Below, piece by piece: positions 5,825-22,006 of a stretch of DNA of 64,000 nt. The notes under the pieces are model-generated. The model worked only from the letters and a program-made list of their open reading frames with translations. It was not told the DNA's origin and ran no database searches. The stretch is from Mogibacterium sp. GTDB lineage: Bacteria; Bacillota; Clostridia; Peptostreptococcales; Anaerovoracaceae. Position 1 is the first letter of the stretch; each line of letters opens with the position of its first letter. The translations under genes and the position numbers were made by a program. The stretch is taken from the NCBI GenBank assembly GCA_017403955.1, contig JAFRDH010000022.1:62001-126000 (forward strand), given 5' to 3'.

Positions 5825-6006
5825 ATTCTCCTGCTCCTTTCCCTTGATTCAGTACTTTATATAGAGATTATCAGTTTGCTGATGAATGTTCAACTAAATC
5901 ACAGTTTTTCAGTATCCGTAATCTGCACTTGTATTATCTCATATGGCACATTTTGGGGTATATGTGAATTGAAATATATAGTGTATAATACTACAATATA
6001 GCTGTT

Positions 6007-6115
6007 CTTTGAGCAAAAGCACCTAAGCGCTCGTTGATCACTTGATCGTATGGTGCTGCGCCGAGGCCATGAGCCTCCGGGGTATCCGGGGAAACCCGAA
6101 TGCCTTCCCTTAATC
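6007..6115 (+). promoter_or_regulatory. Candidate molybdenum-cofactor (Moco) riboswitch aptamer
   Basis: A GC-rich, strongly structured leader 100 bases before the MobA-MoeA fusion gene in an AT-rich gap. Visible stems are AGCACC (6018-6023) with GGTGCT (6052-6057), GAGGC with GCCTC (6063-6077), GGTAT with ATGCC, and an inner CGGG/CCCG hairpin capped by GAAA. The order of a long arm, a GCCTCC segment, a GAAA-capped hairpin and a final GCCTTCCC resembles the Moco RNA motif as I remember it. A terminator hairpin follows at once, giving an aptamer plus expression platform. The rest of the 389-base gap (5825-6006) shows nothing recognisable. A covariance-model search with Rfam RF01055 would decide the class. 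Confidence 0.55.
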
Positions 6116-6149
6116 GTAAAAAAGAGCATGACAAGCAAAGTATTTATTG

Positions 6150-6213: not shown

Positions 6214-8058
6214 ATGGATAAAACCCGATATGGATGCGCTATGCTGGCCGGAGGATCCGGCAAACGAATGGGCATATGCAACAAAGCACAACTTGAATAT
6301 GAAGGCAGGACGTTTGCTGACCTGATCGGATCAGAACTTACCGGTACAGGCATGCCTTGCTATATTTCGACAGCGGCATATGAACAGACAGTCCCCGAAG
6401 GATGGACACTCGTAAAAGATGAGGTCACCGGAACAGATGGACGTTTTGCCGGCCCGATGGGTGGGATTTACTCATGCCTCAGGCAGGCTATGAGAGACGG
6501 ACTTGAGGGAGTGTTCTTTGTCCCGTGTGATGCGCCGATGTTCAGTAAGTCCGTTATAGAACGCATGGCAGAAATACTGGAAAATGAGCCGGACAAACCT
6601 GAAGCGCTGATATGGTGCACCGGAGATGGTAAAATACAGACGACTTTCGGCTGGTATTCTGTTAAATGCATCAAGGTGCTTAAAGAAGACATTCTCAAAA
6701 ATGGTTTCAAACTCCTAAAAAGTCTTGAGCGCATCAACTGCAAATATATCAAAACTGCCGATGAAGGGGTAAACGATCGTTGTTTCATTAATGTTAATAA
6801 TACTGAGGACTACAGAAACATGCTGAATGAAGACTTAAGAAAAAAGAATCTGGATACGCCTATATCACTCGAGGAAGGAGTCGAGCTTCTTGTCAGCCAG
6901 ACCGAGCTGATCAAGGATAAGGAACTCGTTCCGTTCAGACAGACGCTCGGCAGGACTTTGGCAGAAAATATTACCGCAACACATGATCAGCCGCCGTTCC
7001 CGCGTTCACCGTTCGACGGCTACGCTATAAGAAGCGCTGACTCCGAAGGAGCAAGTAAAGAGAATCCTGTTATGCTGAAGGTCATCGGCGAAGTCGATGC
7101 GGGCGGAGTTTTCGAGGGTACGCTGCATGAGGGTGAAGCTCTTCGTATCATGACAGGCGCGCCGGTTCCTGAGAGCGCGGATGCAGTGATCAAGCAGGAA
7201 GAAACCGACTATGGTGAGGACAATGTCAGGATCTACAGACAGATGAGGCATCTCCAGAATGTCTGTGCCATAGGCGAAGATTATAAGATGGGCGAGATCC
7301 TCCTCGAAGAAAGAACACATATCGGAGCTGTTGAAACAGGAATAATCGCGAGCACCGGACGTACAGAGGCTTATGTATACCGCAGACCTCGCGCGCTCGT
7401 TCTTTCGACCGGAGACGAACTGTCGATGCCGGGTGATGAGCTAAGACCTGGCAAGATCTATGATTCGAATCTCTTCACGATAGAAGCACTCCTTACAAGC
7501 TGGGGCGTAGAAGTCACCGAAGCAGTGCAGGTCCCTGACGAACCTGAGAAAGCAGCGGAAGTGATCAGTAAGTATGCAGATTCTGTAGATATGATCGTTT
7601 CTACAGGCGGAGTTTCTGTAGGGAAGAAGGACATAATGCATGATGTCTACGCATTGCTTGGCGTTTCAAGGACATTCTGGAAGATCGGCATCAAGCCGGG
7701 AGCTGCGATGATGTCCGGAAATTACAAAGGCAAAATTGTCCTCTCGCTTTCCGGTAATCCGTATGCGGCCTTCGTAGACCTGCATCTTGCGGTCAGACCT
7801 GTCGTCATGACGATGAACGGAAATGATCATTTCGGCATGGTAAGAAGCCGCGCGACTCTGATGAGCGATTACGACAGACCGAGTCCGATCAGACGATTTG
7901 TCAGAGCATTCGTTCAGGATGGCAAAGCTTATATTGAAGGACATCTTGGCGGGAACGGAGATATAGCATCAGGTCGCGGTATCAACGCTCTGATCGAAAT
8001 ACCGGCAGGTTCCGATGCACTGAAAGCAGGAGAAGAAGTAAGAATTCTCTTCCTCTGA
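6214..8058 (+). CDS. MobA-MoeA fusion: molybdenum cofactor guanylyltransferase and molybdopterin molybdenumtransferase
   Basis: Two cofactor enzymes in one 614-residue chain. Residues about 1-195 are a MobA-type nucleotidyltransferase with the GTP-binding LAGGSGKRMG near residue 11 and the metal-binding FVPCDAPMF near 105. Residues about 210-614 are a full-length MoeA with PPFPRSPFDGYA, RIMTGAPVP, the MoCF core STGGVSVGKKD and LSGNPYAAF. MoeA inserts molybdenum into adenylated molybdopterin; MobA adds GMP. Putting them on one chain could channel the cofactor. There is no clear ribosome site before the ATG. MobB lies 16 bases downstream. The candidate riboswitch and terminator upstream suggest end-product control. 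Confidence 0.9.
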   Translation: MDKTRYGCAMLAGGSGKRMGICNKAQLEYEGRTFADLIGSELTGTGMPCYISTAAYEQTVPEGWTLVKDEVTGTDGRFAGPMGGIYSCLRQAMRDGLEGVFFVPCDAPMFSKSVIERMAEILENEPDKPEALIWCTGDGKIQTTFGWYSVKCIKVLKEDILKNGFKLLKSLERINCKYIKTADEGVNDRCFINVNNTEDYRNMLNEDLRKKNLDTPISLEEGVELLVSQTELIKDKELVPFRQTLGRTLAENITATHDQPPFPRSPFDGYAIRSADSEGASKENPVMLKVIGEVDAGGVFEGTLHEGEALRIMTGAPVPESADAVIKQEETDYGEDNVRIYRQMRHLQNVCAIGEDYKMGEILLEERTHIGAVETGIIASTGRTEAYVYRRPRALVLSTGDELSMPGDELRPGKIYDSNLFTIEALLTSWGVEVTEAVQVPDEPEKAAEVISKYADSVDMIVSTGGVSVGKKDIMHDVYALLGVSRTFWKIGIKPGAAMMSGNYKGKIVLSLSGNPYAAFVDLHLAVRPVVMTMNGNDHFGMVRSRATLMSDYDRPSPIRRFVRAFVQDGKAYIEGHLGGNGDIASGRGINALIEIPAGSDALKAGEEVRILFL

Positions 8059-10426: not shown

Positions 10427-10957
10427 ATGATGGATTCTCAGAAAAAGATCAAATTGAAAGTTAATGGAAGAGAACATTGCTTCACTATCGGTGATGGTTG
10501 CGGTGAGATCCCGGCTTCTGAGACGCTTGTAGAGACGATCAGAGAGAGGCTTCTCCTTACCGGGACCAAGCGTCCTTGTAATGAAGGCGGCTGCGGTGGA
10601 TGCACTGTTCTTATCGATGGAAAACCTTCACTTTCATGCTCAACGCTGACTTCAGAATGTGACGGAAAGCAGATCACTACAATAGAAGGGCTTGAAGATC
10701 CTGTTACACATGAACTTCATCCGATCCAGCAGGCTTTTATAGATCTGGATGCCATCCAGTGCGGAATGTGTACACCCGGAATCACACTTACTGCCAAAGC
10801 TCTTCTTGATAACAATCCTGATCCGACCAGACAGGAAGTAGCCGAAGCGCTTGCAGGCAATATCTGCAGATGTACCGGTTACGAAAAGTACTTTGACGGC
10901 ATTCTGCTTGCTGCAAAGAGAATGAGAGAAACTGCGAATAATGGGAAGGGAGAGTGA
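10427..10957 (+). CDS. Molybdenum hydroxylase 2Fe-2S subunit (first pair)
   Basis: Small electron-transfer subunit of a xanthine dehydrogenase-family enzyme, 176 residues. The N-terminal plant-type ferredoxin domain has CNEGGCGGCTV near residue 46 and the fourth Cys in SCSTLT. The C-terminal helical domain has CGMCTPG near 113 and CRCTGY near 149, together binding two 2Fe-2S clusters. The start is one of two adjacent ATG codons after AAAAGGTG. The gene overlaps or nearly abuts the molybdenum subunit gene, so the two are translationally coupled. It is close to, but clearly different from, the second 2Fe-2S subunit at 13260. Confidence 0.92.
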   Translation: MMDSQKKIKLKVNGREHCFTIGDGCGEIPASETLVETIRERLLLTGTKRPCNEGGCGGCTVLIDGKPSLSCSTLTSECDGKQITTIEGLEDPVTHELHPIQQAFIDLDAIQCGMCTPGITLTAKALLDNNPDPTRQEVAEALAGNICRCTGYEKYFDGILLAAKRMRETANNGKGE

Positions 10958-10962
10958 CCGGA

Positions 10963-13239
10963 ATGGATATTGTCGGTAAGAATGTTGAGAGGCTCGATGC
11001 CAGAGCCAAAGCTACAGGAGCTGCAAAGTTCACTGTAGATATTCGTGAAGTCGGCATGCTTACAGCTAAGTTCCTGCGCTCTCCTTATTCTTTTGCCCAA
11101 ATTGTTTCCGTAGATACTTCTGAAGCTGAAAAAATGCCTGGTGTTTATGGTTTTGTTGATCAACTGGATCTGGTCGGAAGGACAACACATCATGACATAC
11201 TCGATGACAAAATCAGATTTTTTGGCGAGGCTGTCGTTGGAGTAGCTGCAGAAACAGAAGAGCTGGCATTGGAGGCTCTTGAGAAAGTTCAGGTTACTTA
11301 CAGAGTCCTTCCGGGTGTGTTGGATTTTGAATCTTCTGCGAAAGAAGATGCTCCTAGAGTATGGCCGGGTGGAAATGTTGCGACCTGGAGAGGCGCAAGT
11401 CCTGTAAGTCAGGGAAGCTCACTTCGCTGGGAGAAAGGCAACACTCAGGAGGCAATAGAGAAAGCCGATCATAAGGTGTCAATAACAGTCAAAACACATA
11501 CACAGTTCCACGGCGCGCTTGAACCTCATGCTTGTACGGCAAGCTGGGATCCGGGTATGGAAGTTCTCAGAATGAACATTTCAAGTCAGGGCGTGTATGG
11601 TAATCAGGAAGATATCGCATCTTCACTCCACCTCAATCTTGATCAGGTTCAGGTCACAGCTGGATTTGTCGGAGGAGGATTCGGTTCCAAAGCGCATAAC
11701 ACATGTAAAGAGTATCTTATGAGCGCGATCCTGGCACAGCGCACGCTCAGACCAGTCAGATATGAGCCGGAAAGAAGCGAGGAATGCATAACAGCGCTTA
11801 GACATGAAGCCACATTTTCTTATGAACTTGCGGCAGATAACGATGGTACTGTGAAGGGCATCAGCATGAAGGCTTATCGAGTAGGCGGTGCCCACACATC
11901 ACTGCAGATGAACTTTCTCCTCGGAAGTACGGAATATGTAGCACCGACCTATCTGAGGAGTCCAAATGTCTGCTATGAAGGCTGGAGCGTATACACTAAT
12001 ATGCCGCTGTGCGCTGCATACAGAGGCTTCGGTTATTTCGAAGGTGGTATTGGATTCGCAGAAGCAGTGGATATGCTCGCTGAGGAGATCGGAATGGACC
12101 CGGTCGAATTTCTTCTTAAGAATGTTCCTGTCAAAGGAGATCCTGTAAGTACTGATCAGGGACCGCTTACGACCGCAGGTATACGTGAGACAGTACAAGC
12201 ATGTGCTGATGCGATCAGATGGAAGGCAAAATATCATGTGCCTGGCGGAAGGAAGCTACCTGACGGACGTATGCACGGAATAGGACTTTGCCATGCGATG
12301 GGCAGAGCGACATTGCCGAATTTTGTCACCAGCGGCAACGCAACGGTTCAGGTCAAAATGGATGGAAGTGTAAGAGTCTTTGCAGGTATCAGTGATATCG
12401 GACAGGGGCAGGCTACGGCAATCAAACAGATCGCAGCGGAATCAGTCGGAGTTCCTTTCGACGCTGTTTCCGTGACCTGGGGTGATACTGTAGCTCCGCA
12501 TACCGGCGATCAGGTGGCAAGCTCTACAACAATGATGACCGGTAACGCAGTCAAGCTCGCAGGTGATGACGCGAGAAGGCAGATCATCGAAGTTGCAGCA
12601 AGACTCCTCAAAGAGCCGGAAGAAAACCTGCAGGTGAAGAATGGTTTTGTTTCCAGCATTGCGGACCCTGAGAAGAGGATGCCTGTCTCGGCAGTCATCA
12701 AGTCTCCGGGCGTCAAAGTGATCACCGGAAACGGCAACTGGTCGATAACCGACATACAAGCTTCTCCAAGATCGCTGGTTGTAACTGCCTGTGAAGTAGC
12801 GGTAGACACGGAGACGGGCAAAATCCAGCTCCTTAACATGGTGCAGGGAACAGATTGCGGCAGGGCAATATGCAAAACAAGAGTAGAGGGACAGCTCGAC
12901 GGAGTTCTGTCAGGAGGCGTAGGTTATGTCCTTTCAGAGGACTGCGCTATAGATTTCAAGGACAACGGCAGGATACTCAATCTGAATCTGTATGACTATA
13001 AGATGCCGACTGCACTTGATTGTGTAGATATCCTTCAGCCGGGAATTATTATGGAGTTTCCGGATGAAGTCGGTCCATATGGAGCTAGAGGAATGGGCGA
13101 AGCAACGCTTTCAGCGAGCGCTCCGGCCATCATGAATGCAGTATATAACGCAATCGGTATCAGATTTGAAGCGACACCGCTTACATGCGATAAAGTCCTT
13201 AAAGCAATAAAAGCAAAGCAAAATAAAGAAAGCATTTAA
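10963..13239 (+). CDS. Molybdenum hydroxylase large (molybdopterin-binding) subunit (first pair)
   Basis: Catalytic subunit of the xanthine dehydrogenase/aldehyde oxidase family, 758 residues. The N-terminal a/b hammerhead domain begins GKNVERLDARAKATG. Cofactor-binding segments include VGGGFGSKAHN near residue 232, CAAYRGFGYFEGG near 345 and GQGQATAIKQIA near 480. The late YGARGMGEATLSASAP carries the glutamate expected to act as base in hydroxylation. A GTG at 10954 overlaps the previous stop, but the GGAAGGGAG site is better spaced for the ATG at 10963. The substrate is not decided by sequence; purines or N-heterocycles are plausible. Confidence 0.9.
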   Translation: MDIVGKNVERLDARAKATGAAKFTVDIREVGMLTAKFLRSPYSFAQIVSVDTSEAEKMPGVYGFVDQLDLVGRTTHHDILDDKIRFFGEAVVGVAAETEELALEALEKVQVTYRVLPGVLDFESSAKEDAPRVWPGGNVATWRGASPVSQGSSLRWEKGNTQEAIEKADHKVSITVKTHTQFHGALEPHACTASWDPGMEVLRMNISSQGVYGNQEDIASSLHLNLDQVQVTAGFVGGGFGSKAHNTCKEYLMSAILAQRTLRPVRYEPERSEECITALRHEATFSYELAADNDGTVKGISMKAYRVGGAHTSLQMNFLLGSTEYVAPTYLRSPNVCYEGWSVYTNMPLCAAYRGFGYFEGGIGFAEAVDMLAEEIGMDPVEFLLKNVPVKGDPVSTDQGPLTTAGIRETVQACADAIRWKAKYHVPGGRKLPDGRMHGIGLCHAMGRATLPNFVTSGNATVQVKMDGSVRVFAGISDIGQGQATAIKQIAAESVGVPFDAVSVTWGDTVAPHTGDQVASSTTMMTGNAVKLAGDDARRQIIEVAARLLKEPEENLQVKNGFVSSIADPEKRMPVSAVIKSPGVKVITGNGNWSITDIQASPRSLVVTACEVAVDTETGKIQLLNMVQGTDCGRAICKTRVEGQLDGVLSGGVGYVLSEDCAIDFKDNGRILNLNLYDYKMPTALDCVDILQPGIIMEFPDEVGPYGARGMGEATLSASAPAIMNAVYNAIGIRFEATPLTCDKVLKAIKAKQNKESI

Positions 13240-13259: not shown

Positions 13260-13766
13260 ATGAGAACAGAACAAAAAGAGTACATCATACTCAATGTGAA
13301 CGGAATCGACCGCAAGTTCACTGTCGGGGAAGACAGAACTGATGTACAGCCATCGGAAACACTTGCAGAAACTCTTCGCAATCGCCTTGATCTGACAGCT
13401 GCCAAAGTGAGCTGCGACAAAGGCGCGTGTGGATGCTGTACTGTGATTGTCGACGGGGAGGCTACTCTCAGCTGCTCAACATTGACTGTTGAGTGTGATG
13501 GAAAACATGTACTGACACTTGAAGGTCTTGAAGATCCTGTGACAGGAGAACTTGATCCTATCCAGCAAGCCTTTATTGATCATACTGCTTTTCAGTGCGG
13601 TTATTGCACTCCGGGAGTCATCATGACAGTCAAGGCACTGCTAATGAAGAATCCACATCCTACAGAAAATGAATTGAAAGAAGCGCTTGCAGGCAATTAC
13701 TGCCGTTGCGGATCACATCATCAGGTGATCGAAACTGTGATGGATATGACAAGAGAGGAGGCTTAG
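13260..13766 (+). CDS. Molybdenum hydroxylase 2Fe-2S subunit (second pair)
   Basis: A 168-residue second copy of the two-cluster iron-sulfur subunit. Cys positions are CDKGACGCCTV near residue 58, SCSTLT, FQCGYCTPG near 119 and YCRCGSHHQVIE near 148. The last motif differs from the CRCTGY form of the first copy, with Gly-Ser-His in place of Thr-Gly-Tyr. GGAGGG precedes the ATG by 11 bases. It lies 20 bases after the first large subunit and one base before the second, so all five hydroxylase genes should be one transcript. Confidence 0.92.
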   Translation: MRTEQKEYIILNVNGIDRKFTVGEDRTDVQPSETLAETLRNRLDLTAAKVSCDKGACGCCTVIVDGEATLSCSTLTVECDGKHVLTLEGLEDPVTGELDPIQQAFIDHTAFQCGYCTPGVIMTVKALLMKNPHPTENELKEALAGNYCRCGSHHQVIETVMDMTREEA

Positions 13767-13767
13767 C

Positions 13768-16065
13768 ATGGCAGAACACAGATATTTAGGCAAGAATCAG
13801 CCAAGGCTCGCAGCGAGAGACATCGTAACAGGAAGAGCCAGATATGCTGCTGATGAAAAAATAGCAGGTATGCTCTGGGCCAAGGTTCTGAGAAGTCCAT
13901 ATGCGTATGCAAAAATCATTGATATCGATACAAGTAAAGCGGAAGCTCTCCCTGGAGTTAAGGCAATAATCACATACAAAAATGCACCTCACTGGAAGGC
14001 TGGCATGATAATTCCTCACAAGCATCTGCTTTCTGACACAGTTTACTTCATAGGAGATGCGGTAGCACTGATCGCAGCCGAGACAGAAGCAATTGCAGAT
14101 GAGGCAAGAGATCTGATCAAAGTCGAATATGAGGAACTCGATCCGATCCTTTCCATTGAGGATTCCATGAAGGAAGATGCTCCTCAGCTTTATCCGGAGA
14201 TCCCCGGGAACGTTGCAGACTATGAACCGTTCGCGAATCAAGGGATGGCACTTACGCAGGAGAAGGTCGGAGACATTGAGGCAGGGTTTGCAGAAGCTGA
14301 TGTTATCCACGAGGTAACTACAGTACTTGAAAACGCGCAGAATCCTCTTCCGCCTGAATCTCCGGGAATCATAGCTGAGTGGAACGGAGAAGATTACGTA
14401 ACTGTCCGTGGCTCTATGTCCAGTAACGGACTCTGCAGAATGATGAACTCAGGATGTATGAATCTCCCGATTTCGAAGATGAGAGTCATTGCGTCTTATG
14501 TTGGAGGCAGTTACGGCTCAAAGCATTTCTCCAGCAATGGCCTGATAATTCATTACGCAGCAGCACTTTCCAAAGCAACCGGCAAGCCGGTGGGACTCTT
14601 CTATGACAGAGAAGAGCATCTGACATGCCAGACAACAAGAATGAATTCGATCGGAAAGTACAAGATCGGAATGAAGAAAGACGGTACGATCACTGCGATC
14701 CAGGGCGAGTGGACAGGTGAAGCAGGAGCTTTCAACGGTGAGCACTATATGATCATCGCTGTTGGACTCATCTCGCAGGGAGTGCTCGCGCAGAGCAAGA
14801 ATGTAGACATTTCGACAAAGATCGTTCTTACCAACCGCCAGACAAGCGGAGCATTCAGAGGATACGGTTATCTTGAGAATGCTATTCACATCAGTAACGC
14901 GTTGTATCAGACTCTCGAGAAAATCGATCTGGATCCTGTCGAATATTTCCGCAGAAACAGGCTCAAAGTGGGAGATGAATTCTACCATGCATATATGTGC
15001 TCCGGAATGGTCAAAGCAGCCGGCCCTGATGCCCTTGAAATGATCAATAAGGGCGCAGAGAAGTTCAGATGGGACGAGAGGTGGAAAGGTTTCGGCGTTC
15101 CGACATATGAAGATGAAAATGTAGTACGTGCAGTCGGTGTAGGATTCTGCGGACAGAGTGACGTAGGAGAACAGCTCGCGAATGAGAACGTCAATCTTAC
15201 ATTCGATGGAGGTGTCACAGTAAGTTGCGTAGCGACTGAATTCGGACCGGGTACAAGAGATGTCATGAGAAAGATCGCAGCGGAGGCCCTGAATGTTGAT
15301 CTCAGCATGGTTCGCGTGACTGACTCTGACAGCATGGCTGCTCCTTATGAATGGGGAAGCACAGGATCGAGAAGTACTTATGCAATGGGAACAGCAGTAC
15401 TGAAGGCCTGCGAGGATGCAAAAAGACAGCTCTTCGAAAGAGTCGCTCAGATTTTCCACTGCCCGCCTGAAGCACTTGAGACCAAGGATGGAATGGTTTC
15501 AATCATAGGACATCCTGAGGCAACAGTTCCATGGATCGCAGCGATCGGATTCAACGGCAGCATTACGGGTGTCGGAAACTTTGGCGGTGAATACAACGTA
15601 CTCGTTCAGCAGGTACAGTTCATCGAAATGGAACTGGATAAGAAAACCGGCAAAGTTACCGTTCTTGAACAGCTTTGTTCAACAGACTGCGGACAGATCG
15701 TAAACCCGGATGCGCTCAAAGGACAGCTTGATGGATACTTCCCTGGTATCGATATGGCGATCAGAGAAGGAATGATCTGGGACAAGGACGGAAGAATCGT
15801 CAATCCGAACATGATCGACTATAAGACAAGAACCTGGAATGAGATCCCAAAACATGAAAATATCATTCTCGAATCGGCGGCAGATGGCAATTATGTAGGA
15901 ACAAAGCCTCCGTACGGAGCATTCGGAGCGGGCGAGCCAAGTCTTGCACCTGGAATCCCGGCTTTGACCCTTGCAATCTATAACGCGACCGGCAAATGGT
16001 TCACAACATATCCAATCACCCCGAAGGAAATCCTGGATGCTCTTAGAGAGAAGGAAGGTAGGTAG
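13768..16065 (+). CDS. Molybdenum hydroxylase large (molybdopterin-binding) subunit (second pair)
   Basis: A 765-residue paralogue of the large subunit at 10963. The N-terminus is the same type (GKNQPRLAARDIVTG). The first cofactor segment reads VGGSYGSKHFSS rather than the usual GGGFG form, and the middle one is GAFRGYGYLENA. The C-terminal PYGAFGAGEPSLAPG keeps the catalytic glutamate. These differences suggest a different substrate from the first large subunit rather than a redundant copy. GGAGG lies 8 bases before the ATG. The overlap of function with a shared FAD subunit downstream is inferred from the gene order. Confidence 0.9.
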   Translation: MAEHRYLGKNQPRLAARDIVTGRARYAADEKIAGMLWAKVLRSPYAYAKIIDIDTSKAEALPGVKAIITYKNAPHWKAGMIIPHKHLLSDTVYFIGDAVALIAAETEAIADEARDLIKVEYEELDPILSIEDSMKEDAPQLYPEIPGNVADYEPFANQGMALTQEKVGDIEAGFAEADVIHEVTTVLENAQNPLPPESPGIIAEWNGEDYVTVRGSMSSNGLCRMMNSGCMNLPISKMRVIASYVGGSYGSKHFSSNGLIIHYAAALSKATGKPVGLFYDREEHLTCQTTRMNSIGKYKIGMKKDGTITAIQGEWTGEAGAFNGEHYMIIAVGLISQGVLAQSKNVDISTKIVLTNRQTSGAFRGYGYLENAIHISNALYQTLEKIDLDPVEYFRRNRLKVGDEFYHAYMCSGMVKAAGPDALEMINKGAEKFRWDERWKGFGVPTYEDENVVRAVGVGFCGQSDVGEQLANENVNLTFDGGVTVSCVATEFGPGTRDVMRKIAAEALNVDLSMVRVTDSDSMAAPYEWGSTGSRSTYAMGTAVLKACEDAKRQLFERVAQIFHCPPEALETKDGMVSIIGHPEATVPWIAAIGFNGSITGVGNFGGEYNVLVQQVQFIEMELDKKTGKVTVLEQLCSTDCGQIVNPDALKGQLDGYFPGIDMAIREGMIWDKDGRIVNPNMIDYKTRTWNEIPKHENIILESAADGNYVGTKPPYGAFGAGEPSLAPGIPALTLAIYNATGKWFTTYPITPKEILDALREKEGR

Positions 16066-16069
16066 ATCG

Positions 16070-18418
16070 ATGAAAAATTTCAAACATAAAGATGCCCTTA
16101 CTGTAAATGAAGCTGCAGAAGCCAAGGCACAAGGCGCAAAGGTCATTGCAGGCGGATCAGACCTGCTCGGAGAACTCAAAGATAAGATTCTCCCTGAGTA
16201 TCCGGAAAAGATCGTAAACATAAAGACGATACCGGGAATGGACGCAATAGAGAAAATCGAAGGAGGTGTACGCATCGGAGCAAATGTTAAGCTGTCAGAA
16301 CTTGCCGGCTGTGAACTGGTCAAAGATAAGGCCCCGGCAGTTGCAGAAGCTGCATACTCAGTAGCGTCACCGCTTATCCGTAATCAGGCGACTGTTGGAG
16401 GAAACATCTGCCAGGATGTACGCTGCTGGTACTATCGTTATCCGAATCAGATCGGGGGCAAGATCCTCTGTAACAGAAAATGCGATGGTATGCAGTGTTA
16501 CGCATTCACCGGAGAAAACAAGTATCACAGCATAATGGGCGGCATGAGAGTCCACAGATCCGGGTGCAGCGAATCCTGCCCTGCACATATCGACATCCCG
16601 CAGTACCTTGAGAAAATCAGAGCCAATGATCTTGATGGAGCAGCCAGGATCCTTATGAAGAAGAATCCTATTCCTGCAATGACAGGACGTGTATGTCCTC
16701 ATACATGCATGACTGACTGCAAGAGAGACAGATATGATGAGTCAGTCAACATCAATCAGATCGAAAGATTTATGGGTGACTATATCCTTGCGCATGCTGA
16801 CAGATTCATGACGGCTCCAGAGCACGAGACCGGAAAGAGTATCGCCATTGCAGGTTCCGGACCGGCGGCTCTTTCTGCAGCGTTTTATCTCAGACAGGCA
16901 GGACACACTGTTACTGTATACGAGAGAATGGAAGAACCCGGAGGCGCATTGATGTACGCTATCCCTGAATATCGTCTTCCTAAGGACCTGGTACGTAAGC
17001 AGATCAAGGCAATTGCCGATATGGGAGTTAAGTTTGTATGCAACACTAAGATCGGTGAGGATGTAACAGTTGATCAGTTGAAAGCTGAAAATGATAAGGT
17101 TTTCCTGGATACCGGTGCATGGGAACCATCGGTTCTCGGTATTGAAGGCGAGGAACTTACAAGATTCGGTCTTGAATTCCTTGTAGAGGTCAAGAAGTGG
17201 ATGGCTGATAAACCTGGTTCAGATGTCATCGTAGTCGGTGGCGGTAGCGTAGCGGTAGACGTTGCGGTCACCGCGAACAGACTTGGAGCAAAGAGTGTTA
17301 AAATGATCACCCTCGAGCCGGCAGACAAGCTTCCTGCATCCAAGAAAGACCTTGACTGGGCTCTTGAAGAGGGGATCACCATGGAAAATTCATGGGGACC
17401 TAAGCGTATCCTCAGAGATGGTTCAAAAATCACAGGACTTGAACTCAAGAAGTGCGTATCGCTTTTCGATGAATCCGGAAGATTCAGTCCTAAATATGAT
17501 GAGAACGACACTATGATCGTAGAAGGTGATGCAATATTCCTTTCGATCGGTCACAGGATCGACCTCAGTTTCCTCGGAGAAGATCCGTTCCTTGCAACAG
17601 AAAGAGGCCGCATCACAGTCGATGATAAGACTCAGGCTACAAGCAAGGAAGGTATTTACGCAGGCGGAGATGTCACAACTGGAACCAAGACAGTTGTACT
17701 GGCTATTGCAGCAGGTAAGAAGGCTGCGGATGCTATGATTGCAGAACTTGGCGGAGAGCCGGAAGCCTCACTCAAAGAGGGATTCCTCAAGGCGGGAGCG
17801 CATTGCCTCGACCATACACCTCAGCTTGAAACACCTCATGTGCCTGCAGCTGAACGTACGATCGACAAAGAAGATGAACTGACATGCAGCTTTGAAGAGA
17901 TCCTGACTGAAGCTAACAGATGTTTCAACTGCTCATGCTATGCCGTAACACCGTCAGACATTGCAACTGCGCTGATGGCTGTACATGCAAAGGTGGTAAC
18001 GAACAAGGCTGTTTATGATTCTGATGAGTTCTTTACCACAAAAGTGAAGATCCAGGATTTCCTTGCGGAAGATGAGATCGTTACAGCAATCGAAGTCCCG
18101 TTTGCAGATGGTGTTTGTTCATACGACAAGTTCAGAGAGAGAGAATCCATTGACTTTGCCGTAGTCGGACTTGCAACTAACTATAAGGTGAAAGACGGAG
18201 TGATCAAGAATGCAGACATCGTTCTTGGAGCTGTCGCACCAGTACCTTACAGAGCCGGGGATGCGGAAACATACCTCACGGGCAAGGCAGTCAGCGAAGA
18301 GGTGGCTGAAAAAGCTGCAGAAATCGCTCTTGCAGGTGCAGATCCTCTCGAACAGACTGAGTATAAAGTAGATATAGCAAAGACTCTCATCAAGAGATCG
18401 ATTATGAAACTTTTATAG
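16070..18418 (+). CDS. FAD subunit of molybdenum hydroxylase with an inserted GltD-like NAD(P)H oxidoreductase module
   Basis: A 782-residue mosaic. Residues 1-160 are the CoxM/XdhB-type FAD domain (AGGSDLLGELKDK, QATVGGNI) with the 4Fe-4S cysteines seen in 4-hydroxybenzoyl-CoA reductase beta subunits (VRCWYYRYP, CNRKCDGMQCYAFTGENKYH). At the point where the family normally continues, a glutamate-synthase-small-subunit-like module is inserted: CSESCPAHIDIPQYL near 165 and CPHTCMTDCKRD near 209 (4Fe-4S clusters), FAD motif GSGPAALSAAF near 260, NAD(P) motif VVGGGSVAVDVA near 388, GIYAGGDVTTG near 525. The host domain resumes at CYAVTPSDIATALMAVHA near 621 and ends with the CO-dehydrogenase flavoprotein C-terminal domain. 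The ATG at 16070 follows AAGGAAGG. Probably it passes electrons from both molybdenum subunits to NAD(P). Confidence 0.88.
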   Translation: MKNFKHKDALTVNEAAEAKAQGAKVIAGGSDLLGELKDKILPEYPEKIVNIKTIPGMDAIEKIEGGVRIGANVKLSELAGCELVKDKAPAVAEAAYSVASPLIRNQATVGGNICQDVRCWYYRYPNQIGGKILCNRKCDGMQCYAFTGENKYHSIMGGMRVHRSGCSESCPAHIDIPQYLEKIRANDLDGAARILMKKNPIPAMTGRVCPHTCMTDCKRDRYDESVNINQIERFMGDYILAHADRFMTAPEHETGKSIAIAGSGPAALSAAFYLRQAGHTVTVYERMEEPGGALMYAIPEYRLPKDLVRKQIKAIADMGVKFVCNTKIGEDVTVDQLKAENDKVFLDTGAWEPSVLGIEGEELTRFGLEFLVEVKKWMADKPGSDVIVVGGGSVAVDVAVTANRLGAKSVKMITLEPADKLPASKKDLDWALEEGITMENSWGPKRILRDGSKITGLELKKCVSLFDESGRFSPKYDENDTMIVEGDAIFLSIGHRIDLSFLGEDPFLATERGRITVDDKTQATSKEGIYAGGDVTTGTKTVVLAIAAGKKAADAMIAELGGEPEASLKEGFLKAGAHCLDHTPQLETPHVPAAERTIDKEDELTCSFEEILTEANRCFNCSCYAVTPSDIATALMAVHAKVVTNKAVYDSDEFFTTKVKIQDFLAEDEIVTAIEVPFADGVCSYDKFRERESIDFAVVGLATNYKVKDGVIKNADIVLGAVAPVPYRAGDAETYLTGKAVSEEVAEKAAEIALAGADPLEQTEYKVDIAKTLIKRSIMKLL

Positions 18419-18426
18419 AGGACATC

Positions 18427-18861
18427 ATGGATAAGAAAAAATGTGAAGAATTGGTTATTTCCTATGGAGAACTGCTGGAAAGTAATTGTTTCACACCTGA
18501 AACGGTAGCTGCCGTATTTGCTGATGATGCTTTTGCAATCCTGCCTCATGCCGGCGAAGGAAAAGGCATCATGGAACTTGTGGGCAAACATTGCGAAATG
18601 ATGGGGCCTTTTACCGGAGCTACTCATAATATCACTAACATCGTTATCACCCCTGTGGGTGATAACGATGTCAAGGCAACGTGGCATATGGAGGTCGTTC
18701 ACCAGTTCAGACCGGAAATCGCGCAAAATCTGCCGGGCGATCTGTTCATCGTAAATGATCTTGTATCTGCGGACCTTGCAAAGCAGGGAGATACATGGAA
18801 AATCAGCAGACTTTCAATGGACACTAAATTCAAATACTTTATCAGCAGCGCAAGAGACTGA
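18427..18861 (+). CDS. NTF2/SnoaL-like small protein
   Basis: A 144-residue protein with the look of the NTF2-like cone fold: an N-terminal helix, VAAVFADDAFAILPHAGEGKGIMELVGKH, then strands ITNIVITPVGDNDVKATWHMEV and a C-terminal GDTWKISRLSMDTKF. The family includes ketosteroid isomerase-like enzymes, dehydratases and ligand-binding proteins. It starts 8 bases after the FAD subunit and probably handles the hydroxylase substrate or product. Its middle contains a perfect 15-bp inverted repeat at DNA level. The ribosome site (GAGGACATC) is weak, which fits translational coupling. Confidence 0.72.
   Translation: MDKKKCEELVISYGELLESNCFTPETVAAVFADDAFAILPHAGEGKGIMELVGKHCEMMGPFTGATHNITNIVITPVGDNDVKATWHMEVVHQFRPEIAQNLPGDLFIVNDLVSADLAKQGDTWKISRLSMDTKFKYFISSARD
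18638..18671. repeat. Perfect 15-bp inverted repeat inside the NTF2-like gene
   Basis: ACATCGTTATCACCC at 18638-18652 is followed by loop CTGT and its exact complement at 18657-18671. It lies in the frame coding NIVITPVGDNDV. In RNA it would be a very stable 15-pair hairpin with a 4-base loop. It may slow ribosomes, reduce transcription into the regulator gene, or be a second repressor site. Confidence 0.85.
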
Positions 18862-20777: not shown

Positions 20778-21008
20778 AGCTGATTGGGGATCTTTTGTTC
20801 CGAAATGGCACAAAGCTTTCCAATTGTGAATAGATGAAATCAGCTGATAAGTGATATAATCATCGCAAATGATAAGATGATTCGCAAGGGCGTTCCGGCA
20901 GCGCCCTTAAAAAAGCATACCGATTAGTAAAAAAAAACAATTCGCTGCTTTTTATGTATCATGTGTTACTGTCAGGCGCATTGGGATTTTGCTAAACTAT
21001 GTCTGAAA

Positions 21009-21036
21009 GGAGACAGAGAACCGTCCCCCTGTCTCC
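21009..21036. repeat. REP-like palindromic repeat
   Basis: GGAGACAG and CTGTCTCC enclose AGAACCGTCCCC. I know this AGAACCGTCCC core inside an 8-bp stem as a dispersed palindrome in many Clostridia, often linked to REP-associated tyrosine transposases. Only this copy is in the window. It ends 13 bases before the start of the following gene and lies directly against its ribosome site. The preceding 270 bases hold a TGATATAAT box at 20852-20860 and a GGGCG/CGCCC hairpin without a T-run. Confidence 0.7.
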
Positions 21037-21049
21037 GGGAGGGGAGATT

Positions 21050-22006
21050 ATGAAGTATGGTGCTGTCATCGTAGCGGCAGGAATGTCGACTCGTATGAAA
21101 CAGTTCAAACAACTGATGAAGATCGGCGATATGAGTATTGCTGAGAGAGTCATCGTAAACTTTCGCCGTGCAGGTGTCAGGGATATCGTTATGGTGACCG
21201 GATATAACGCAGACCAGCTTGAGAAAGCGCTAAAAGGATTCGATGTTGCTTTCGTACGCAATGAGCAATATGAAACTACTCAGATGTTTGATTCTGCAAA
21301 GCTTGGGCTCGAGTATCTGAACGGTAAATGTGACAGAGTGTTCTTTTGCCCGGTGGATGTTCCGTTTTTCACGGACCGGACAGTCACTGAAGAAATCGAG
21401 AAAATGGACGCGGACAGCAATATCAAGGTCATAGTTCCGAACTGCGGCGGCAAGGACGGCCACCCTCTGCTGATAGAAGGAAAGGCTGTTGGGGAGATCC
21501 TGGCGCATAATGGAGAAAGGGGAATGAAGGGAGCATATGAATCCCTTCCTGAAGGCACAGTTGTAAGGATCAATGTTGATGATGAAGGTGCTGTAATTGA
21601 TGCCGATACAAGAGACGACTACAGGAAACTTGTCGATCTCCATAATGAGAGGCTGCTTCATCCTGAGATCCGCATAACATTCGCGAGTACTACAAGGTTC
21701 TTCGGACCCGGGACTGTCGAACTTCTCAAGGAAGTGGACCGGTGCGGCAACGTGCGGGACGCATGCGAGAAATGCGGCTTTTCGTACAGCAAAGGCTGGA
21801 ACATACTGAAAAGCTGCGAGGAGAAGTTCGGATATACGATTGTAGAGAGACAGGCCGGAGGACAGACCGGAGGAAGTGCGAGAGTAACTGATAAAGGTCG
21901 TGATCTTCTGGCAGTGTATGAAGAACTAGAGACCGAACTTACGGAAATCGCTGAAGAGAAATTTAACGTACTGATGAAGAAATATCATCTTACAGCAGAG
22001 AACTGA
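21050..22006 (+). CDS. MocA-like molybdenum cofactor cytidylyltransferase fused to a ModE/LysR-type HTH
   Basis: A 318-residue protein. Residues about 1-195 are a nucleotidyltransferase of the MocA type, which adds CMP to molybdopterin for hydroxylase-family enzymes: VIVAAGMSTRMKQFKQL near residue 5, FFCPVDVPFF near 98 and CGGKDGHPLLI near 130. Residues about 210-310 form a winged helix like the N-terminal DNA-binding domain of ModE (TVELLKEVDRCGNVRDACEKCGFSYSKGWN, then GGQTGGSARVTDKG). It may couple cofactor finishing to gene control. The ATG at 21050 follows GGAGGGGAG; a longer in-frame start would read through the REP palindrome. Confidence 0.85.
   Translation: MKYGAVIVAAGMSTRMKQFKQLMKIGDMSIAERVIVNFRRAGVRDIVMVTGYNADQLEKALKGFDVAFVRNEQYETTQMFDSAKLGLEYLNGKCDRVFFCPVDVPFFTDRTVTEEIEKMDADSNIKVIVPNCGGKDGHPLLIEGKAVGEILAHNGERGMKGAYESLPEGTVVRINVDDEGAVIDADTRDDYRKLVDLHNERLLHPEIRITFASTTRFFGPGTVELLKEVDRCGNVRDACEKCGFSYSKGWNILKSCEEKFGYTIVERQAGGQTGGSARVTDKGRDLLAVYEELETELTEIAEEKFNVLMKKYHLTAEN

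Follow-up and report, generated by a model that had tools for sequence, protein, structure and literature searches.

The window analysed here, a 64,000-nucleotide stretch of a Mogibacterium sp. contig (JAFRDH010000022.1), carries a molybdenum (Mo) hydroxylase operon whose flavin adenine dinucleotide (FAD) subunit encloses a second redox unit within its own chain. Two pairs of 2Fe-2S and Mo subunit genes (10427-13239 and 13260-16065), separated by gaps of at most 20 bases, precede the gene of this chimeric FAD subunit (the chimera), whose reading frame is unbroken over 16070-18418 (Table 1). The alpha subunit of 4-hydroxybenzoyl-CoA reductase (4-HBCR), an enzyme that takes a hydroxyl group off an aromatic ring, is the nearest solved structure for both Mo subunits. 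The only MoCoBD_1 genes (two) and the only FAD_binding_5 gene of the whole genome lie in this operon, and both Mo/Fe-S pairs presumably use one FAD hub. A SnoaL-like gene (18427-18861), not found next to other chimeras, closes the operon.

Table 1. The chimeric gene, its parts and the subunit genes upstream of it (positions in the window)
Feature	Position	Strand	Basis
2Fe-2S subunit, first pair	10427..10957	+	Pfam
Mo subunit, first pair; best solved match 4-HBCR alpha subunit	10954..13239	+	
2Fe-2S subunit, second pair	13260..13766	+	Pfam
Mo subunit, second pair; best solved match 4-HBCR alpha subunit	13768..16065	+	
Chimeric FAD subunit (host Mo hydroxylase FAD subunit with nested GltD-like module), 782 amino acids (aa)	16070..18418	+	Open reading frame (ORF), Pfam, AlphaFold2 model
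Host N-terminal half (residues 1-158): FAD_binding_5 and first three Cys of the 4-HBCR-type [4Fe-4S] loop	16070..16543	+	Pfam, loop comparison, HcrB alignment
Host C119, C134, C143, counterparts of 4-HBCR beta-subunit C122, C138, C146	16424..16498	+	HcrB alignment
Inserted GltD-like NAD(P)H module (residues 159-622)	16544..17935	+	Pfam; fold match to NfnABC, StnC, NfnB, GltD
Fer4_20 part: C166, C170, C209, C213, C217, E232	16556..16792	+	
Pyr_redox_2: FAD site and nested NAD(P) site; GGGSVAVDV...ITLE at residues 390-416	16838..17716	+	
R617-C618-F-N-C621 ligand pair (N-terminal in canonical GltD)	17918..17932	+	
Host C-terminal half (residues 623-782), beginning with C623, the fourth loop Cys; CO_deh_flav_C	17936..18415	+	

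Four Pfam domains, all scoring above curated cut-offs, follow one another in the chimera in the order host, module, module, host: FAD_binding_5 (residues 8-115), Fer4_20 (163-241), Pyr_redox_2 (257-549) and CO_deh_flav_C (687-779). The outer two have the fold of a 4-HBCR-type FAD subunit and the inner two that of a GltD/NfnB-like module. An earlier sequence-only reading had proposed a complete GltD-like module nested within the FAD subunit rather than fused end to end, and this is confirmed, the same junction being found in independent orthologues. The upstream boundary also stands, with G158 as the last host residue, whereas the host resumes at C623 and not at about residue 621. In an AlphaFold2 model compared with solved folds by VIA-align, the nested module is predicted to be folded and matches NfnABC, StnC, NfnB and GltD. 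Its site is no arbitrary surface loop, lying instead within the host's own four-cysteine 4-HBCR-type loop (C119, C134, C143 and C623).

Comparison with un-inserted FAD subunits (40 of L085-L127), which share 36-52% identity with the chimera over the N-terminal host segment, shows what the loop looks like when it closes directly, with no NAD(P) module. In 38 of these 40 homologues, 24-25 residues separate the third loop cysteine from the SD motif, whereas chimeras hold about 465 extra residues between YHSIxG and the fourth loop cysteine. The first exception (L107, 9001-9972) has a longer loop of 34 residues that by eye resembles the first linker residues of the module; the second (L118) has a longer, unrelated loop of 70 residues. 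When an un-inserted subunit (L085) is aligned with HcrB, the 4-HBCR beta subunit of Thauera aromatica (1rm6_B), HcrB C122, C138, C146 and C155 share one loop; the first and last align directly, and the middle two were paired by loop order because the alignment is offset there. We take these four cysteines to be ligands of the [4Fe-4S] cluster of HcrB, and a 2004 title by Unciuleac speaks of an additional [4Fe-4S] cluster. HcrB has no GltD module and uses ferredoxin, unlike the module-bearing chimera. Loop positions one to four are cysteine in 40, 38, 38 and 30 of the 40 un-inserted homologues, compared with all four positions in 40/40 chimeras (the window, five from a search of the order and 34 full-length loci from a contig scan, leaving out L072 as the same record as L045).

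Beyond the loop, 11 cysteines, E232 and R302 are invariant in the 40 chimeras, and in 54/54 after the addition of 14 from the genus of [Clostridium] citroniae. The GltD-type cysteine blocks noticed earlier are thus present, and the conserved set also takes in the host's own four-cysteine loop. Eleven cysteines and one glutamate make twelve ligands, the number that exactly three [4Fe-4S] clusters need, and these we infer to be cluster B (C170, C213, C217, E232), cluster A (C166, C209, C618, C621) and the host cluster (C119, C134, C143, C623). E232 and R302 align with StnC K170 and R239; StnC has a lysine where the chimera has Glu232, and NfnB has a glutamate ligand at the same position (PMC10482914). 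Directly downstream of the full chimera, three loci carry a second, decayed copy of 524-563 aa (L066, 11436-13124; L075, 11665-13269; L051, 11392-12963) with no FAD_binding_5 or Pyr_redox_2 match, in which E232 is gone and all 11 cluster cysteines are retained (3/3); these copies are possibly pure iron-sulfur relay subunits.

The module keeps intact cofactor motifs, as had been claimed, and yet is not a plain GltD, because one of its cluster-ligand pairs lies at the C-terminus. Canonical GltD/NfnB ORFs carry EAxRCLxC....CxxxCP close to the N-terminus, whereas this N-terminal pair (C-x2-C-x4-C-x3-C-P) occurs in 0/40 chimeras; the insert ends C-terminally with R617-C618-x-x-C621, the three marked residues of which are invariant in all 40. 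Among 52 GltD-like ORFs, near-identical ones included, 17 have the N-terminal pair, 34 a like motif at the C-terminus (27 by regular expression, seven by reading of the tails), none both, and the remaining one is truncated where its contig stops. The N-terminal pair is present in 17 of the 18 (463-489 aa) picked by size as canonical GltD candidates, the eighteenth being a cut modular ORF. A C-terminal ligand pair implies that both module ends probably meet at cluster A, which would have made nesting in a loop easy, and RCxxC-x-C leads straight from the cluster A ligands to host ligand C623. To judge from the motifs and the model, the pair may have reached its position by relocation or circular permutation.

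The chimera scores below the cut-offs of two named families, with 121.1 bits against TIGR03195 (the 4-HBCR equivalog, cut-off 404.55) and 256.8 bits against TIGR03315 (YgfK, cut-off 835.3). In module trees, the inserts form one clade against 32 GltD-like rows (SH-aLRT, the Shimodaira-Hasegawa-like approximate likelihood ratio test, 97) and against 49 (97), with YgfK as their sister (92). YgfK, some 1000 aa long, stands alone and has a catalytic part of its own, in contrast to a module nested in an FAD subunit, but is likewise tied to a Mo enzyme, acting after one in urate breakdown (PMC12507026). The GltD part of StnC and NfnABC (8oh5_C, 9bov_A) differs in another way, StnC being joined end to end with NuoG-like domains and not nested in a cluster loop (PMC10482914). 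In a survey of fusions involving molybdoproteins, GltD is listed with the DMSO (dimethyl sulfoxide) reductase family and not, in the available part, with the xanthine oxidase family (PMC6147048). No description of the nested architecture was found in the literature searched, which covered few subscription papers, and a prior description is possible. Of the 47 genomes of the genus (window included), 34 carry Mo hydroxylase genes, and in two of them (G044 contig 1, G035 contig 5) such genes have a GltD-like protein of roughly 1000 aa encoded no more than about 5 kb away. L029, L030, L037 and L040 form one tree group, L029 being confirmed as YgfK, and the YgfK-group protein near Mo hydroxylase genes looks like a split counterpart of the nested module.

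The same architecture was sought elsewhere and found. The junction is spanned in 6/393 genomes of the order (the window and five others) and in 4/398 genomes of the phylum (window included), three further genomes matching on the host side only. A scan of genome contigs listed at least 80 loci, a lower bound, and 40 of the 80 listed have the same junction (35 full length, five truncated or split). The best match in the 46 other genomes of the genus, many of them incomplete, has an E-value of 3.4e-95 and spans residues 163-626 only, so none of these shows a full chimera. Based on record titles, the chimeric loci among the matches listed come from Bacillota, Spirochaetota, Chloroflexota, Actinomycetota, Thermodesulfobacteriota, Acidobacteriota, Elusimicrobiota and Bdellovibrionota, mostly from metagenome-assembled genomes, with isolates such as Acetobacterium tundrae DSM 9173 (L048), [Clostridium] citroniae WAL-17108 and Angelakisella massiliensis. 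Of the 17 genomes in the genus of [Clostridium] citroniae (Enterocloster in NCBI), 10 carry at least one chimera, 16 genes in total, including one pair 93% and one trio 97-98% identical. Searched with the window protein and the L066 chimera, plasmid and phage collections gave no record that covers 80% of the query.

Gene order is shared between chimeras and their un-inserted relatives. 2Fe-2S and Mo genes lie directly upstream in 35/39 other chimera loci (of the four exceptions, L054, L065 and L077 run off their contigs, and in L062 the Mo gene is downstream) and in 29/40 un-inserted loci, the other 11 having no match for one or both, most near a contig end. The same enzyme type therefore occurs with and without the module. 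Chimera neighbourhoods otherwise vary, including an acyl-CoA-ligase-like gene (L070) and a corrinoid-protein-like gene (L048), both below curated cut-offs, and others read by eye; two 2Fe-2S subunits (L053, 5936-6631; L055, 5894-6628) have an N-terminal extension with, by eye, a CxxC zinc-finger-like stretch. No split version of the insert was found beside un-inserted FAD subunits in 40 loci, often with short flanks, and further insert-like matches were truncated or split chimeras, tandem copies or one separate protein beside the Acetobacterium chimera. The host tree shows six changes between the inserted and un-inserted states, at least three of them forced by well supported branches. A simple history of one gain, with the chimeras as a single host clade, was rejected (approximately unbiased test, p-AU 0.000255, or 0.000568 with L107 added). 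These trees were quick and unevenly sampled; they fit a single origin with later losses, or with later exchange via the shared flanks, and the module appears to have been lost or swapped. L107 falls among chimeric Clostridia and may be a secondary loss with a leftover linker scar.

Taken together, these results make it probable that a ferredoxin-type, 4-HBCR-like Mo enzyme has been turned NAD(P)H-linked by a GltD-like module placed in the [4Fe-4S] loop of its FAD subunit. The link of Mo enzyme and NAD(P) on one chain, put forward in the sequence-only reading, is borne out by the Pfam domains, the fold match and the conserved motifs as far as prediction goes. NAD(P)H would pass a hydride to the module FAD, from which single electrons would run through cluster B, cluster A and the host cluster to the host FAD, and on through the small subunit's pair of 2Fe-2S clusters to the Mo centre, or the whole path could be reversed; the module would thus act as a linear NAD(P)H wire in place of ferredoxin. 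NADH-driven substrate reduction is no less likely than oxidation. The second NAD(P) strand ends in LE in 42 of the 54 chimeras, RR in 10 and IL in two, RR being found also in the three best solved matches aligned, among which StnC binds NADPH; LE may hint at NADH rather than NADPH. A parallel is offered by Ucdh, the three-subunit enzyme with which Enterocloster bolteae dehydroxylates urolithin C. Its closest characterized relative is 4-HBCR, and it reduced urolithin C with NADH, a donor that the authors contrast with the ferredoxin of 4-HBCR (PMC12771579). The available part of that account makes no mention of a GltD module, and gives UcdhA, at >90% identity, in a few Enterocloster.

Several points weigh against this reading. 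Model confidence is lowest at the host cluster loop (block means of 47 and 59 at residues 121-140), and E232 may serve the flavin rather than a cluster, because the three tandem copies drop it and keep the 11 cysteines. Nucleotide preference is read from a motif alone, and four congeneric YgfK sequences carry RR, YgfK having been assayed with NADH (PMC12507026). Likewise, NADH use by itself is no proof of a module, because E. coli XdhD-YgfM, with an FAD subunit of about 30 kDa, reduces urate with NADH (PMC12507026).

The un-inserted relatives with the same gene order (29/40) and the ferredoxin use of 4-HBCR (PMC12771579) would also suit a side entrance, in which the host cluster would go on accepting ferredoxin, with the insert mainly a tethered ferredoxin/NAD(P)H exchange unit. 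We consider this unlikely, as the insert sits in the very loop bearing the host cluster and no ferredoxin gene was noted in the locus gene lists (ORFs of at least 100 residues, by eye). Flavin-based bifurcation or confurcation, in which the module FAD would send electrons from NAD(P)H both to the Mo centre and to ferredoxin, had been suggested earlier because the protein would hold two FADs. Two flavins are predicted, the NfnB-like E232 and R302 are invariant, and NfnABC and NfnB are among the closest folds, but two FADs do not suffice. E232 and R302 are compatible with bifurcation, yet StnC, which has the same arginine (R239), shows no bifurcation at this flavin (PMC10482914). Since the anatomy moreover offers one exit chain only and neither an NfnA nor a HydB-like partner is encoded among the operon genes, to which the search was confined, we regard bifurcation as very improbable. 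That the insert is a structural or decaying passenger carrying no electron traffic finds an echo in the tandem copies that lack recognizable flavin or NAD(P) domains; it is hardly credible when all 54 full chimeras retain the 11 cysteines, E232 and R302 and even the decayed copies retain all 11 cysteines. Nothing was found in favour of a chimaeric assembly artefact, which is refuted for practical purposes by the identical junction in independent genomes and isolates, and the gene lies within a 171-kb contig.

Elsewhere in the window, a MobA-like nucleoside triphosphate (NTP) transferase fused to MoeA (6214-8058) lies downstream of a molybdenum cofactor (Moco) riboswitch (5995-6140). A MobA/MocA-like NTP transferase with a C-terminal helix-turn-helix (20999-22006; HTH_1 match slightly below cut-off) is perhaps a transferase joined to a ModE-like regulator.

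The NAD(P)H-linked chimera is a clean example of an entire redox domain nested in a cofactor loop, as opposed to an end-to-end fusion. The nested module would give a concrete structural reason for NADH use by some 4-HBCR relatives, the users of which would be predictable from sequence, and matched inserted and un-inserted orthologues offer test material for the evolutionary exchange of electron donors. More tentatively, the GltD module with its ligand pair moved to the C-terminus may be a one-site redox cassette that enters, leaves or is exchanged as a unit at one point in an iron-sulfur loop and switches a family of anaerobic Mo enzymes between ferredoxin and NAD(P)H, here as one shared NAD(P)H hub for two different catalytic Mo units. 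If true, such a cassette would explain NADH use by 4-HBCR-like gut dehydroxylases.
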